A stretch of DNA of 20,098 bases from a virus. The notes beneath the pieces were generated by a model, which saw nothing but the letters and a program-made list of their open reading frames with translations, did not search any database and was not told where the DNA came from. Below, piece after piece: positions 6,924 through 16,000 of the stretch. Where the stretch lies: positions 1 to 20,098 of IMG/VR virus record IMGVR_UViG_3300020009_000011, one strand, 5' to 3'. The position numbers and the translations under genes were made by a program. Each line of letters starts with the position of its first letter. The stretch's first letter is position 1.

Positions 6924-7021
6924 TTACAACTATCTTGATACTAACTGCGTTTAATACCGTCACAACTATATTGTTTATTGCGATAGCTATTGTTAAACAT
7001 GGTAAAGGAGATGAAGAATGA
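6920..7021 (+). CDS. 33-residue single-span membrane peptide
   Basis: ATG at 6920 overlaps the previous stop (ATGA) and the TGA at 7019-7021 overlaps the next start (ATGA). The product has one hydrophobic span over about residues 4-25 (ILILTAFNTVTTILFIAIAI) and a charged tail KHGKGDEE. The double 4-base overlap strongly suggests a real gene. It could be a holin-like or pinholin-like peptide, or a partner of the lipoproteins; the sequence does not decide. The following gene's Shine-Dalgarno sequence (AAAGGAG) lies in its end. Confidence 0.62.
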   Translation: MITTILILTAFNTVTTILFIAIAIVKHGKGDEE

Positions 7022-7665
7022 CGGTAGCCTACCCACTAAAATCACAATCAGATTACACCGAGTTACGATACTCGTTACGATCTATTGAAAGATTCTACCC
7101 ACGACCTACTGAAGTTTTAATCATAGGTGAAAAACTGCCAGACTGGATTACTAATGTAACTCTGATACGAGTTGAAGATATTACAAGCAGGAAGCAATTA
7201 ACGATTAAGTATAAAATATTAGCAGCTTTAGAATATACTAAGGAAATATTCTTTATGAACGATGACGTTTATCTACTTCAGCCACCGGATTACAAGTATC
7301 ATTATCATGGTGATCTTATTTCGGTAGGCGAAGCAGGAGCAAGACCGTTAAGGAATCAACTATTGAATATGGGACTACCTACTAAGAACTTCGACGGGCA
7401 TTACCCGCTGGTGTATAGACAAGACTTCATTCAAATCCTGGATAAGTTTGCACATGATGTTATTGTGAAGTCAGCGTATTGTAACTACTTACAGATCGAA
7501 GGTGAATATGTGCCAGATAATAAACTGATAACGCAGAAAAACCCTGAAGATATAAAAGGTTTCATTCATGGCAGGCCGTCATTCTCAACCGGGGCGCATA
7601 GTTTACATAGAACGTTACCGATACTACATGAATATTTTCCTAATAAATCGAGGTATGAAGTATGA
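7018..7665 (+). CDS. Glycosyltransferase-like protein (GT-A type, NDD motif)
   Basis: A 215-residue protein. The start is well supported: AAAGGAG lies 7-13 bases upstream. ELRYSLRSIERFYP (about 15-28), then EVLIIGEKLPDW, then EIFFMNDDVYLL with Asn81-Asp82-Asp83, form the nucleotide-sugar binding side of a GT-A fold; NDD would serve as the metal-binding DXD-like motif. The C-terminal half (FDGHYPLVY, FIHGRPSFSTGAH) is like Stealth or capsular-transfer type proteins, but the match is loose. It probably transfers a sugar or sugar phosphate to a surface glycan or virion protein. It overlaps the next glycosyltransferase by 4 bases. Confidence 0.65.
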   Translation: MTVAYPLKSQSDYTELRYSLRSIERFYPRPTEVLIIGEKLPDWITNVTLIRVEDITSRKQLTIKYKILAALEYTKEIFFMNDDVYLLQPPDYKYHYHGDLISVGEAGARPLRNQLLNMGLPTKNFDGHYPLVYRQDFIQILDKFAHDVIVKSAYCNYLQIEGEYVPDNKLITQKNPEDIKGFIHGRPSFSTGAHSLHRTLPILHEYFPNKSRYEV

Positions 7666-8885
7666 AGATCCTCGTCACCATAATAGTTTTCAACCGCTAT
7701 CACAACTTAGAAGCGTGGTTAAGGTATTGGAAGGAAGTAGACACAAGGTGTGAAGCTGAACTGGTAGTGATCCATAACGATAACGGTGAATCAGCTAAGT
7801 TTAAACAACTATGCGATGCTAATAACATCCGATACATAAGACGCAATAACATCGGATTTGATATAGGAGCCTTCCAAGATGTTTGCAGGGAACGATTACC
7901 TGGTTTCCCGGACTACGATTACCTGCTATGGATTACTGATGATACAGTTCCGATGGTAAAGGATTTTATCACTCCGTTTATTACTCAGATACAACAGCCA
8001 GGAGTAGGTATTTCATGTATGCAGATTTCTAAATCAGTAACGCCTCACGTTCGTACTACTGGATTCTGCATAGCTAAATCAACTGCAAATAGATTACAAT
8101 TTCCTGCTGACCCCGTAAGTACTAAAGCGCATTGTTATCACTTCGAGCATAGAGGCGGCAAGCAAATTATGACAAACCAGATTAGAGAAATGGGTTTATC
8201 TTGTGAGATGGTTGCACCCCCACAAGTATCACCGTTATGGGACACCGGTTACTGGAAGCGAATGGATAGGCAATCTGAGCATGATAGATTATTCAACCCT
8301 GATAAAGTATCAGGTGATAAAGTGACTTTTATTTGTACTATCTTTAATTCATACCCGCAAATAATATCTTCATTGTTACTTCAGACACATAAGAATTGGG
8401 AATTATATTTAATTCACGACGGGCCTGCGCCTGATTCTGTTAAGAGTTTAATACCTTCAGATGAGAGAATAAAGTTTATTGAATCAGTAGAAAGGAAAGG
8501 TAATTGGGGACATCATTTAAGACAGTGGGCGCTGCATGATTTTAAACTTGGTGATTACGTTGTAATAACCAATGCAGATAACTACCACGTGCCAGTGTTT
8601 ACAGAATATTTACTGAATGGATTTAAAAAGTCACATACCGCAGTAGCAACATACTGCGATTCTATGACTCATAGTTATAAAGCATGGCAAGTTATCCCGG
8701 TAAGTTTCAAACGTGGATTTATTGATTGTGCTGGTGTAATGGTAAAAAGTGAAATAGCTAAAGAGGTTGGTTGGAATGATACCGAAAATCATTCATCTGA
8801 TTGGACGTACTTTTCTGAGATAGCGGCAAAGTATTCTCCAAAAAACTTTATCCCAGTTAAGGGATGTTTGTTAGTACATAATTAA
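7662..8885 (+). CDS. Two-domain glycosyltransferase
   Basis: A 407-residue protein with two consecutive GT-A-like domains. Domain 1 (1 to about 220) starts MKILVTIIVFNRYHNLEAWL, carries NNIGFDIGAFQD, and has LLWITDDTVP as its DXD-like motif. Domain 2 (from about 225) has the family-2 pattern FICTIFNSYPQIISSLLLQT, ELYLIHDGP, RKGNWGHHLRQWAL, and VVITNADNYHVP as its DXD-like motif. Tandem catalytic domains suggest it adds two sugars or builds a short repeat. It has no signal peptide or membrane span, so it acts in the cytoplasm. The start is the ATG of an ATGA overlap, with GAGGT upstream. Confidence 0.82.
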   Translation: MKILVTIIVFNRYHNLEAWLRYWKEVDTRCEAELVVIHNDNGESAKFKQLCDANNIRYIRRNNIGFDIGAFQDVCRERLPGFPDYDYLLWITDDTVPMVKDFITPFITQIQQPGVGISCMQISKSVTPHVRTTGFCIAKSTANRLQFPADPVSTKAHCYHFEHRGGKQIMTNQIREMGLSCEMVAPPQVSPLWDTGYWKRMDRQSEHDRLFNPDKVSGDKVTFICTIFNSYPQIISSLLLQTHKNWELYLIHDGPAPDSVKSLIPSDERIKFIESVERKGNWGHHLRQWALHDFKLGDYVVITNADNYHVPVFTEYLLNGFKKSHTAVATYCDSMTHSYKAWQVIPVSFKRGFIDCAGVMVKSEIAKEVGWNDTENHSSDWTYFSEIAAKYSPKNFIPVKGCLLVHN

Positions 8886-8890
8886 ATTCT

Positions 8891-10135
8891 ATGATAGACA
8901 CCGAACAACTAATCAAAAACAAAGATTATAAGATTCTAACTGAATGCCGTTGCTGCGGATCAGATAGGTTAGCGAAATACCTGGATCTTGGTTTTTTACC
9001 GTTATCGAATAACCTTGCAGCGAGTACAATAGCTTCGTTTAACAAAGAGAAGTTTCCGTTACAAGTTTTATTTTGCGAAGAGTGTGCGTTATCACAGTTA
9101 TCAATTGTCGTGGATCCTTCGGTAATGTTCGGACATTATGTTTACCGCTCGTCTATCAGTAAAACTTATATCAACCATTGCCGGGAAATGGCTATTGAAC
9201 TAAAGCCGAGACTAACGAAAGATTCATTCATGATTGACATTGGTTCCAATGACGGCACGCTACTACGAGAGTTTAAAGAAGAAATAGGGTTGAAGATAAT
9301 GGGTATTGACCCGGCTGAGAACCTGGCAGCTATTTGCGATGCTGCTGGTATTCCTAACATGACTTACTTCTGGGGGCTAGGTACAGCTCGAAAGATCGTT
9401 AATACTTTTGGCTATGCTGATCTGATTACTGCTACGAATGTTTTTGCCCATTGTGATAATGTAAAGGAGTTTATAATCGCAGCTAAACACGCACTGAAGG
9501 ATAACGGGATATTAGTTTTGGAGTTCCCTTACCTGATCGACTTCATAGAGAATAACGAATTTGATACGATCTACTTCGAGCATCTTAGTTACTTCTCTAT
9601 TGCGCCGTTAGCCCGGCTATGTTACGAGTGCGATATGAATGTAATGTCAGTATCGAAGCAAGATATTCATGGCGGTACGGTACGGGTAACTATTGGAACT
9701 GGAGTTATTGATAAGTCGGTGTTTGATTTCATGGAGAGGGAAAAGGAATACGCCACTGCTTCGAAATATATGGATTGGTCAACGAAAGTTAATCATACGG
9801 TAAACGAATTAAAGTATCATTTATCTAAACTAAAATATGAAGGTAAAAAGATTGCTGCGTTTGCTGCTTCTGCAAAGGGCAATACGTTACTTAACTGCGC
9901 TAATATTACAGTCGGAACTATAAACTACATCGTTGACCAAACCCCTGAAAAGATCGGAAGATATTCACCTGGTACGGGCATTCCAATTGTAAGTATGGAT
10001 GATCTGATAAGAACACCACCTGATTATTTGTTGATATTGTCGTGGAACTTCTTTGAAGAGATACAAAGGAAGGTTCGTGATGCTGGTTATAAGGGGAAAT
10101 TTATTATACCGATACCAGAATTTAAAATAGTGTGA
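8891..10135 (+). CDS. Sugar C-methyltransferase (TylCIII / TcaB9 family)
   Basis: A 414-residue protein with all three parts of NDP-hexose C-methyltransferases. The N-terminal zinc site has Cys19, Cys22, Cys62 and Cys65. The SAM-binding core has motif I DIGSNDGTLL (116-125) and the family motif DTIYFEHLSYFS, which keeps the Tyr, Glu and His of the usual YHEH site but has Phe in place of the first His. The C-terminal domain (from about 320) binds the nucleotide sugar. Such enzymes methylate C3 of keto-deoxysugars. Next to two glycosyltransferases it most likely makes or alters a branched sugar for transfer to a glycan. It starts 5 bases after the previous stop and overlaps the terminase by 4 bases. 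Confidence 0.87.
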   Translation: MIDTEQLIKNKDYKILTECRCCGSDRLAKYLDLGFLPLSNNLAASTIASFNKEKFPLQVLFCEECALSQLSIVVDPSVMFGHYVYRSSISKTYINHCREMAIELKPRLTKDSFMIDIGSNDGTLLREFKEEIGLKIMGIDPAENLAAICDAAGIPNMTYFWGLGTARKIVNTFGYADLITATNVFAHCDNVKEFIIAAKHALKDNGILVLEFPYLIDFIENNEFDTIYFEHLSYFSIAPLARLCYECDMNVMSVSKQDIHGGTVRVTIGTGVIDKSVFDFMEREKEYATASKYMDWSTKVNHTVNELKYHLSKLKYEGKKIAAFAASAKGNTLLNCANITVGTINYIVDQTPEKIGRYSPGTGIPIVSMDDLIRTPPDYLLILSWNFFEEIQRKVRDAGYKGKFIIPIPEFKIV

Positions 10136-11739: not shown

Positions 11740-12253
11740 CGGTAAAGAAAGAAGTTACTTAAATTCAGCTACAGGCACAAAATCTGTAATGAATTTAATG
11801 TACACTGATAAAGATGGTAATAAATGGTGGTCGTTCTCTGACCTAACTGCAATGCCATACACAAGGAGCTTCGCAGCCACAAAAATAACCTCATTATATA
11901 CTTTGGGGTTGAGTAAGGATGATTTGACTGCTCACATTATTACAATGAAAACGATGCTGAAGTCTAACGATCCAGAGAAGCAAGAAAAGATGTACGCCAG
12001 TGTTCTGGACTTCGAGAATAAAGCTAACAATGCAACGGATGCGATAAAACAAATGTCATCATTAGTCTGCGTGTATTTCACTTTAAACGATGAGCCAATA
12101 GATTCGTTTGATAATAATTTACAGATAAAGAAAATGAGTTTATTGGAGGCCGACATCGAGATGCATGGTTTTTTTTTGAAACATCAGATCGGTATCACAG
12201 AACGGTATTCCAGGTTCTTAAATCAGCTTTCCCAAATTGCTTCTCAAGTGTAG
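11717..12253 (+). CDS. Tail assembly chaperone (gpG-like), zero-frame product
   Basis: A 178-residue protein just upstream of the tape measure gene, the normal place for the tail assembly chaperone. Sequence identity to a named family is not clear. The N-terminal 40 residues contain WWSFSDLTAMPYTRSFAATK; the rest is helical. AAGAAAG lies before the ATG. Near the end it runs over nine T residues (12169-12177), where a -1 shift joins it to a second frame (see the GT feature). By analogy with phage lambda G, it would coat or guide the tape measure protein before tail tube assembly. Confidence 0.7.
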   Translation: MWKLESDNGKERSYLNSATGTKSVMNLMYTDKDGNKWWSFSDLTAMPYTRSFAATKITSLYTLGLSKDDLTAHIITMKTMLKSNDPEKQEKMYASVLDFENKANNATDAIKQMSSLVCVYFTLNDEPIDSFDNNLQIKKMSLLEADIEMHGFFLKHQIGITERYSRFLNQLSQIASQV

Positions 12254-12471
12254 AACGAAAGCATAGTTCATTCGGTTCAGAGATACAGAAAGCGGCAGAT
12301 TCAGAACGATCAATGCAGTTAATGATGCGAAGTATAACAAACGGGGTAATATCAGAGCGGGATCGGCTGTTTCAATATACTACGGGTGAATACTTTCAGG
12401 AGTTATCGTTGTTTATTCAGGAAGTGGAGACAAAGAATGAGGAGTATAAAAAATTGAATAAAACGTTATAA
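11717..12471 (+). CDS. Frameshifted tail chaperone fusion (gpGT-like)
   Basis: At GGT TTT TTT TTG (12167-12178) a -1 slip on T TTT TTT lets ribosomes read on in the other frame to TAA at 12469-12471. The extension adds 97 residues from ETSDRYHRT to EEYKKLNKTL, giving a product of about 251 residues. The -1 frame has a stop at 12115 and no ATG before 12313, so it has no good start of its own and depends on the shift. The layout (G, G-T fusion, tape measure) matches phage lambda and many siphoviruses. A sequencing error in the T run is the alternative, but then the product would be fused and the chaperone pattern would be lost. Confidence 0.8.
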
Positions 12472-12490
12472 TAGCAAAAGGGTAGTAATT

Positions 12491-12535
12491 AGTTGCGAAA
12501 TTTCTTACATACCATAAAATTTAAATTTCGCAACT
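12491..12535. repeat. 13-bp inverted repeat with 19-base spacer
   Basis: AGTTGCGAAATTT (12491-12503) pairs exactly with AAATTTCGCAACT (12523-12535). It interrupts the left arm of the larger repeat and is flanked by TTA on both sides (12489-12491 and 12536-12538), as a small insertion with a 3-bp target duplication would be. It could equally be an operator. Confidence 0.6.
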
Positions 12536-12564
12536 TTACAGGGTCAGTATTAAAAATAATAAAT

Positions 12565-12747
12565 ATGAAAAAGATTCTTATAAGGCTGTTTTATGATAAA
12601 TCGCAGCGTTTGTTTCGTAAGTTTTTTACAACGAAACAAACTATTGGCCGTGAGCGTAGGCTTAAGACTCATCCGTTGGTTCTACATCTGGGAGCTTATC
12701 AACATCTGACAGAAGTTGATTCGAGATGTTTGTCAAGGCTATCTTAA
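12565..12747 (+). CDS. Doubtful 60-residue ORF
   Basis: ATG at 12565 gives a basic product (MKKILIRLFYDKSQRLFRKF...). Its second half overlaps the end of the opposite-strand gene and looks like an antisense reading, and a perfect palindrome (12608-12641) shapes its middle. No domain is seen. I list it only because the stretch has no better + strand gene. Confidence 0.2.
   Translation: MKKILIRLFYDKSQRLFRKFFTTKQTIGRERRLKTHPLVLHLGAYQHLTEVDSRCLSRLS
12608..12641. terminator. Perfect 11-bp palindrome, possible end of the reverse-strand gene
   Basis: GTTTGTTTCGT (12608-12618) pairs with ACGAAACAAAC (12631-12641) around a 12-base loop. It lies 20 bases past the stop of the - strand gene, where a terminator would be expected, but there is no U-run on that strand. 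Confidence 0.4.
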
Positions 12748-12877
12748 ATTCATCTCGACCCTTATCATCAGTTTCGTTATTATGCAGGCAATACCTGAAT
12801 AATAATTCTTCTATTAATAACTCCGTTCTTTTTAATGATATGTAAATATGTTGCAACTCAATTCTTTTTTCTCCCAT
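12662..12877 (-). CDS. Possible reverse-strand small gene (moron candidate)
   Basis: A 71-residue acidic, helical product (MGEKRIELQHIYISLKRTEL, ending LSDVDKLPDVEPTDES), read against all its neighbours. The amino-acid make-up is more protein-like than that of the overlapping + ORF. It sits wholly inside the inverted-repeat segment, with a hairpin after its stop. No domain is recognised. A lone reverse gene between chaperone and tape measure fits a moron, or a segment caught in one of two orientations. Confidence 0.45.
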   Translation of the reverse strand: MGEKRIELQHIYISLKRTELLIEELLFRYCLHNNETDDKGRDEFKIALTNISNQLLSDVDKLPDVEPTDES

Positions 12878-13064
12878 AATAATGATTCTTCATTGTGCGT
12901 TAGCCGTGCGCTGGCCTGACATTTATCATAAAATAATTATAACGAATCTTTTTCTCCTTGACCCTGTAATTACTACCCTTTTGCTAACGGTCCCATGCAT
13001 TTACTATTTTTTTATTATCTTTACCTAACGATTAGAGACAAACGGGAATTTTTCTTTAATCGCT

Positions 13065-16000
13065 ATGGCTGACGAAATACAACGGACAATCTACAAACTC
13101 GAAATTGATGATTCTGGTTACATCAGAGGCATTGATTCGCTTTCAGCATCTACACAAAGATTCGCACAAGTACAAGATTCAGTTAATAAGAAACTCGCAG
13201 AGGCAAAGATTGCCTTAAAAGCTGCTACTGATGAAACCGCAAGGCAACAGCGTGAGCTTGATAACGCAAACCGTAGCGGCAATACTGGCGTTATAAAAGT
13301 CAGGGAGGATGCTTTAAAGAAGGCTCAGACAGAGCAGGCAAAACTAACCGAATTAGTTAAACAAACCGAAATTGAATACGAGAAAGCCACAAAAGCTGCT
13401 ACTGATTTTGCCAATACTACTGCCAAGGCTGGTTCTCTGACGCAAGGCGGGCGTGTTCCTGTTCCGCCAGTAGTACAGCAACCAGTACAGCAGATCGTCC
13501 CGCCAGTAGCTTTACAAGACTTTAACCTAAGTGATGCCGCTTCAGCTTCGGCAGCCGAATTTGAGCAACTCCGGGGAGCTATTGCAGCCGCAGAATTGGC
13601 ACTGGAAGGTATGAATCAGGAATCTGAAGAGTTTAAGGCATTGGCGCCGGCAGTTGACGCAGGGAAAAAAGCCCTTGCGGATTACGACGCAGCGGCAGAG
13701 AAAGCCGGAGGATCTACACTGTCCCTTCGCTCCCAGATCAGGCAGGGCCGGGAAGAGTTGGTTAAACTTGAGGCGCAGGGTAAAGGGAACACAAAGCAAT
13801 ACTTCGAACTTGAAAAGAATGTAGCCCGGTTGACCGATGCTTTCGGGGATCAGCAACAACGGATTAAGATACTTGCCTCAGATACTAAGGCTTTAGACTT
13901 CGGTAAGGGAGCAATTACGGCTGCAACTGCTGCGTTTTCGGCTTATACTTCTGTTTCGATCTTAGCTGGAGAGCAGTCAGAAGAAATGCAAAAGAAAACT
14001 TTGCAACTATTTGCAGCTATGCAGTTGCTTCAATCGTTAGAGCAATTAAGTAACCTAACAAGACGGGAAGGGGTTCTGGCTACGTTGGCGCAATCAGGGG
14101 CGCAGGCTGCTTATACGGCTGTAGTTGGTGCAAGTACTGGAGCAATGAAAGCGTTTAGAATTGCGCTTGCAGCAACCGGGATAGGTTTGGCAGTTATTGC
14201 TATAACTGCACTGATTCAAAAATTTAGAGAATTGCAAGAAGCTGAAGAGGCCGCAGCAGTAGAACAAAAGGCTTTACTTGATATTAGCAAGCAGGCCGTT
14301 GATAGTTACGCCGAAGAGGTTACCCATTTAAAATTACTATCAGCAGAATATTCTAATTCGGCTACGTCATTAAAGAGAAAAAAAGATATTCAGGATGAAT
14401 TACAAAAATCTTACCCAGAATATTTTAAAAATTTAGATACACAGGCAGATAAAGAAGCGTTTGTTGCGGAACAGATCGGTAAAGTAACACAGGCTTTAAT
14501 CTTACAGGCTAAGATCCAGGCAGCACAGGGGTTATTATCTAAGAAGTTTGCTGATTTATTAAAGCAGCAGTTTGATCCTACTGAGGCTGTAGGCTTCTTG
14601 GATGTGGTTGGATCTACATTAAGAAATATAACCGGCTCTTTAGGGGATGTTGGTACTGATTTAAGTAAGACAGCACAGTCAAATATTTCTAAGGCACAAG
14701 CAGAATATAATAAATTTGAGAAGTTTATTATTGATTTTGTTAATGGTTCAAATGCTGAGTTAGAAAAACTGGGTGGTGACCCAAAGAAAGACCCAAAAAA
14801 ACCAACCAAAGCTGTTGATAATGTATTTGAACAGGAAAAACTTAAATTAAATGCGAGGATTGCTGAATTAAAACGGGTAGAAGAAACAGGAATTGAAGCT
14901 ATAAATAGAGAATTTGAATCTAAATTACTCGTTGAGCAAAAACGAATAGCTGATTTATTAAAAGATAAAAAGCTAACAAGGCCACAGGCTAAAATATTAG
15001 TGCAGCTTGCTGTTGATGCAAACCAACTCGAACTTGATAAAGCACTTGCCGACTTCAATAAAAAAGTATTGGATGCAAGAGAAAAACTGAACGACGATCT
15101 TCGCAAACTGCAAGACACGCAAACTGAAGAAAGTTTAAATCTTATTCAGGATGAGTTTGAACGCAGGAGAGCGTTAATTGATTTCAATGAGAAGCAAGAG
15201 TTGGCAGATGCGATAGAACGAAACGAAGATAGATTGGCGGCTTTGGATCTTGATCGTTTACTACTTGGTGAAGAGGCTTATCAGAATGCAAAGAATATTA
15301 TCATTACTACTGGGGAACAGGAGGCAAATAATATACTGGCAAGGTTTGCAGCATTAAGGAAGGATTTAGCTGCCGATACATTCCGTGACTTACTTGATTC
15401 AATAGGTGCAGGACTTCAGACGGGTTTAATATTCCGAGATGAAAACTTGGCTCAGGAAATAAGAGATGCTTCGGATCGTTTCTTACAAGGCAAGATTACC
15501 TACGAGCAGTTTCAAAAAGAACTTACCGCGATCCAGAAACGTGAAGAGGGTATTCGCAGGGATGCTACGTTATCAAACCAGCGTTCTGAATTATCGGATT
15601 TAGATAGCCGTATTGCAACTATAACTGATAAAACATCTGAAGAGTTTAAAGTATTAACACAAAGAAGGAAAGATTTACGGGCGAAGATCGCACAGGGAGA
15701 AAAAGAGGATGCGATTAAGGATGCTGAAGATACCAATACAGATGCAAATACCCAGAAGGTTGAAACCTTAAACGACTATGTTGTTGCCGTTGGTGATCTT
15801 GCTAACTCAGTAATCCAATTCTGGCAAGCTGCTAACGAAGCTGAATCAGCCGCATTAGATAGATCCATTTCATTGCAGGAGAAACGAGTTACGGCAGCAC
15901 AGAGAATTGCTGAACGTGGTAATGCCCAATATCTGAAAGCTGAAGAGGATAGATTGAAAGAACTTACAATAAAACGTGAGAATGCAGCCCGTAGGGAATT

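Follow-up and report, generated by a model that had tools for sequence, protein, structure and literature searches.

A foldback cassette with covarying helices and a variable passenger in late gene gaps of phage contigs

A conserved fold around a variable passenger

The 20,098-base virus record analysed here (the source contig, taken at its full length and called the window) carries a 515-bp cassette whose fold is conserved in other phage contigs, while the sequence enclosed by this fold is not. The helices of the fold covary beyond the relatedness of the copies, in the few sequences available. Selection on the folded strand best accounts for a fold that is kept while its helices are exchanged and its passenger varies. 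One strand of the cassette folds on itself in such a way that a closing helix, consisting of P1, P3 and P4, and two hairpins on the 5' side hold the passenger. The parts of the cassette are listed below (window coordinates).

12472..12986, + strand: whole foldback cassette, 515 bp, with its + strand co-oriented with the late genes; further related copies lie at L024:8917-9351 and at L032:8567-9128
12472..12491, + strand: closing helix P1, 5' strand, 20 bp exact; in the other copies the sequence is replaced and the pairing kept
12967..12986, + strand: closing helix P1, 3' strand; its first bases may belong to P3 too
12492..12534, + strand: side hairpin A, stem 12492-12503 with 12523-12534; double-sided change in 8 of 12 pairs in three copies
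12537..12546, + strand: helix P3, 5' strand; pairs with 12959-12968, double-sided change in 4 of 10 pairs
12959..12968, + strand: helix P3, 3' strand, from the pairing alignment and the three-copy helix alignment
12568..12606, + strand: core helix P4, 5' strand, with constant TTCTTATAAGGCTGTTTTATG and a GGC bulge; invariant in four copies
12916..12953, + strand: core helix P4, 3' strand, with constant AATTATAACGAA; three copies aligned
12608..12641, + strand: side hairpin B, stem 12608-12618 with 12631-12641, constant loop AAGTT.TTT; 4 of 11 pairs double-changed and none broken in four copies
12642..12915, no strand: variable passenger region, not common to the other copies
12662..12877, - strand: putative antisense open frame of 71 aa, from the ORF list
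12565..12747, + strand: putative sense open frame of 60 aa, with its ATG at the foot of P4; the ORF list starts this frame at an upstream TTG
12987..12995, + strand: ACGGTCCCA tail past the helix, common to the G004 copy

The first-pass annotation had described exact 20-bp inverted arms enclosing 475 bp, and this was confirmed: the P1 arms (12472-12491 and 12967-12986) are 20 nt long, 100% complementary and spaced 475 nt apart. The window holds five perfect inverted 16-mer words at most 900 bp apart, against none in each of 20 shuffles. The further 8 matching bases per arm, which had been placed beyond a small insert in the left arm, are also present (CAGGGTCA and TGACCCTG) and continue the P1 arms once this insert is removed. 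The insert (12492-12534) is a hairpin itself, with a perfect 12-bp stem. The arm pairing extends much further than the approximately 28 bp noted before; with the two side hairpins set aside, the pairing alignment of the arms contains 64 Watson-Crick pairs closing the segment. Gapped alignment of the left arm to the reverse-complemented right arm gave a score of 75.4, the maximum in 500 dinucleotide shuffles being 58.4. The folding z-score of the segment was -10.3 for the + strand and -9.87 for the - strand, and -10.6 when the + strand was folded as DNA. In 16 stretches, i.e. the window and related contigs, the listed inverted pairs (for several stretches the five longest each) include arms of at least 19 nt with at least 95% complementarity only at the three complete copies; the nearest other pair listed, in L024, was 17 nt long with 94% complementarity.

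Copies in other phage contigs

Two further complete copies and one half copy were found in other phage contigs. A search of the whole records of ten relatives gave a strong match in G004 (the record of L009) at 8918-9354, with E values of 1.9e-26 for the left part and 1.2e-8 for the right part. This copy lies between two late genes, away from the chaperone site. Another relative, G005, has counterparts of the genes that flank the G004 copy, with 91% and 89% identity; in G005 they lie close together, without the element. Core patterns in IMG/VR yielded two more copies. One, in L032 (G012, a 48-kb contig), has an HNH endonuclease gene on one side and a small gene on the other; the second, in L031 (G011, 6.8 kb), lies upstream of a terminase that is 53% identical to that of Flavobacterium phage 11b. 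L031 begins inside hairpin A and contains the left part only; the right arm was not found in the rest of this contig. The intergenic stretch before the terminase gene of L031 (1080-1500) contains many short TAGTAATG or GTAGTG-like near-repeats, which possibly form a tandem array.

All four copies are located in gaps of late gene blocks, in one orientation relative to the late genes. P1 is 20, 23 and 19 bp long in the three complete copies, and the + strand folding z-scores of these copies are -10.3, -7.85 and -12.7. The enclosed sequence is not common to the window and G004 copies.

Model R1, for which the left cores of all four copies were used, recovered the four known copies and nothing else below E 0.09 in 34 sources (in which L083 repeats L032). 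The IMG/VR pattern matches L026, L028, L029, L030 and L044 were inspected and dismissed as chance; R1 was blank in all of them. Named phages and plasmids searched for similar DNA gave short, weak matches only. In cellular genomes (genome_contigs) the core 18-mer was present in 11 stretches, of which L034 scored best with R1 (E 0.095) and no other reached an E value of 1 or lower. A 19-mer with at most 2 mismatches was found in 21 of the 395 Bacteroidota genomes, a reversed control pattern being at least as common (table read by eye).

Covariation of the helices

A manual alignment of the helices in the three complete copies, with the helix ends as anchors, gave 78 pairs. These comprised 41 invariant pairs, 36 pairs with double-sided changes and 1 with a single-sided change; 232 of the 234 pair cells in the three copies were Watson-Crick, with one G-T and one T-T. 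P1, which was anchored at its inner end despite indels, is the source of 13 of the 36 double changes, and in the L032 copy the P1 sequence shows no relation to the P1 of the window. The 23 double changes outside P1 consist of 9 of transition type, for which a passage through G-U is possible, and 14 of transversion type, for which a passage through a mismatch is obligatory.

When arms were swapped among the complete copies, the best partner of each left arm was its own right arm (pairing score 89.6-96.6, versus 31.2-57.2 for swapped arms). In hairpin B, which could be compared in four copies, 4 of the 11 pairs were double-changed and 100% of the cells were paired. Its covariation score was matched by 0 of 500 shuffles, a control that leaves relatedness in; versions slid out of register, which like the swap test are independent of relatedness, paired at 44-56%. 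Unpaired or asymmetric features persist in all complete copies as well. The left side alone has the GGC bulge and both hairpins, an A-rich stretch faces TCCTTG, and hairpin B keeps its loop. Since the copies keep their pairing where the letters differ, it seems to be the folded shape that matters, rather than a flipping switch.

Such a switch, in which an inverton would flip a small gene or alter transcription into the tape measure gene, had been among the layouts proposed at first, and exact arms do flank the segment. It found no support and was dismissed as highly improbable. The tyrosine and serine recombinase families (integrase PF00589 and resolvase PF00239) were absent from 7 of 7 contigs, with positive controls, although the contigs may be incomplete and a gene may lie outside them or in the host. 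A single orientation was seen in four of four copies, the passengers of the copies are unrelated, and the arm sequences vary between copies yet stay self-complementary, unlike recombinase sites.

A MITE-like DNA foldback element that depends on an enzyme provided in trans for its movement, with the arms of the P4 core as the recognised part, is a realistic possibility, if short of probable, and a close rival to the RNA clasp described below. Its arms could have been matched by copying each other on replication foldback, or the folded single strand could be the substrate. The strict Watson-Crick pairing and the double transversions point to a cause at the DNA level, and the P4 core alone is constant. 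Copies occur at different places in different phage contigs and the relative G005 lacks the element at the place where G004 has it, as would suit the small transposable element suggested in the first-pass annotation. On the other side, neither a Y1 transposase nor an integrase or resolvase was found in the seven contigs (the Y1 controls were positive), no clear target duplication was seen by eye at the G004/G005 junction, where the flanks have diverged, and the outer ends are not constant among the copies. Moreover, the left-right asymmetries persist, beyond what arm-to-arm copying alone explains.

Open reading frames and the insertion site

Within the 475 bp a gene reading against the tail operon had been noted. 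The open frame is present (71 aa, antisense); as a gene it is putative. It may be a chance frame, because shuffling the 475 bp gave a frame at least as long 96 times in 2000, and it had no match, and so no relatives, in Pfam, PHROGs, the named-phage collection or IMG/VR. The sense frame that begins at the foot of P4 is open in all three remaining copies as well, for 11, 29 and 74 codons (read by eye). In L031 this frame is a 74-aa ORF with a hydrophobic stretch, for which no family match of weight was obtained; it begins in the conserved left core and is followed by a 97-aa ORF, in an overlapping region (L031 40-566). Both L031 ORFs could encode small membrane proteins.

The neighbours in the window are the terminase large subunit, the tail chaperone frame with a second frame, and a tape-measure-like gene of 1185 codons. 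Between 12160 and 12260 a run of nine T ends the tail chaperone frame and a second open frame follows to 12471. The two frames seem to be joined by a frameshift at the T run near 12169-12177, and the run together with the second frame looks like a programmed frameshift that would give a longer form of the chaperone. Elsewhere in the window (7018-10135), two glycosyltransferase-like frames and one methyltransferase-like frame lie between the terminase subunits (translations read by eye).

Relatives of the tail chaperone were present at ten loci, and a chaperone alignment search found none in genome_contigs. The insertion gap, defined from the stop of the second frame to the start of the tape measure gene, was measured in 10 of 11 contigs including the window; L008 ends too early and was left out. 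The gap is 593 nt in the window, 56 nt in L006, 46 nt in L010, 200 nt in L011, 275 nt in L015, 629 nt in L009, 511 nt in L013, 742 nt in L007, 1089 nt in L012 and 531 nt in L014. Sense ORFs occupy the gap in L015, L009 and L013, the longest gap ORF is antisense in L007, L012 and L014, and no ATG ORF of at least 35 aa is present in L006, L010 and L011. The 157-aa ORF in the L013 gap appeared HNH/AP2-like by eye. As the gaps of the relatives are empty or hold either sense or antisense ORFs, this stretch between the tail chaperone and the tape measure gene, at 12469-13065 of the window, is a variable site of insertion, and antisense frames are common in it. Foldback arms were missing from the nine other measured gaps, and R1 found no copy at the chaperone site of the ten relatives. 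The comparison with related phages that the first-pass annotation had put forward was thus carried out, and at this site the segment was absent or replaced by other ORFs (gaps of 46-1089 nt). A moron-type insertion site is supported by the close relatives that lack the segment (46 and 56 nt versus 593 nt) or carry other ORFs.

An ordinary moron, acquired through illegitimate recombination, would suit a site that hosts so many different inserts. The arms would then be signals of its own antisense gene, with a promoter in the right arm and a terminator before the left arm, and their pairing a by-product of shared descent; a terminator-like site on the - strand of the G004 copy and a promoter-like match in the right arm of the L032 copy are in line with this. 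We consider this origin improbable. By-product pairing would drift out of step over 36 double changes, promoter-like sites are no commoner than in shuffles, the window copy has no terminator-like site, the ORF is within chance, and the copies share no common passenger.

A possible RNA clasp in the late message

Our best guess, put forward tentatively, is that the cassette is a structural clasp in the late mRNA, possibly a target of RNase III. The fold would act in RNA. The cassette is read in the same direction as the late genes, so their message would presumably include it. In that message the nearly perfect helix, of which P1 alone makes up about two turns, could form a clasp that is bound or cut. 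Host RNase III would be the simplest case of the putative cutter, and the constant core would be the part recognised. The clasp would separate the upstream from the downstream message and excise or silence its contents, and extra or antisense DNA could in this way be carried inside the late operon at low cost.

RNA is favoured on two grounds: all four copies share the direction of the late genes and would be co-transcribed with them, and RNase III needs a helix of about the length of P1 (20, 23 and 19 bp). The identical orientation of four of four copies is weak support for RNA. Against the clasp, only 1 of the 234 cells is a G-U pair, whereas RNA helices are usually richer in G-U; 14 of the 23 double changes outside P1 are of transversion type; and the two strands differ little in how well they fold. 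A function for which every carrier must have both arms is at odds with the half copy in L031. The case for the RNA clasp is built on three complete copies, aligned by hand.

Rfam covariance models gave no match of weight for the three copies (best E 0.3; GOLLD and ROOL are covered if in the library), and known RNA families were dismissed on this ground. A retron was rejected, no reverse transcriptase (PF00078) having been found in the seven contigs, with positive controls. An HNH-linked RNA was also rejected, an HNH gene having been identified beside the L032 copy only and hence not being a common trait.

Comparison with known elements

A limited survey of the literature showed no description of the element, which does not prove its absence from print. 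It may represent an undescribed class, a large folded phage element (RNA or single-stranded DNA) common to otherwise differing phages, with a constant core helix, two side hairpins, a replaceable closing helix and a passenger slot. If the fold is under selection, phages would have in it a portable structural clasp for hosting extra or antisense DNA inside the late operon. Such a clasp would offer a mechanism by which small passenger segments are gained and lost, and the element might also be a new class of large phage RNA. Should it be no more than a foldback DNA element, its arms evolving in step would still make it an unusual case.

Invertons are segments flanked by exact inverted repeats, as is the cassette, which differs in that no recombinase was found, one orientation is seen in four assembled copies and the repeat sequence is inconstant. 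Phage morons are optional cargo between late genes; the cassette likewise is optional cargo among such genes, but here a conserved foldback structure encloses it and the gene content is putative. With MITEs and foldback elements, which are small, lack an enzyme of their own and have inverted arms and varied locations, the cassette shares all of these properties; its end sequences are inconstant, however, its arms are asymmetric and there is no clear target duplication. GOLLD and ROOL are large phage-borne RNAs of several hundred nucleotides with covarying helices. The cassette resembles them in size, in covariation and in being phage-borne, and differs from them in its lack of an Rfam match, its unconserved passenger and its near absence of G-U. 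Finally, the intervening sequences of 23S rRNA are optional inserts, closed by a long stem and excised by RNase III, with variable content that sometimes includes an ORF. The cassette is likewise an optional insert with a long closing stem, variable content and sometimes an ORF; it differs from them in that its processing is putative, in its location between phage late genes, and in its constant core helix and two side hairpins.
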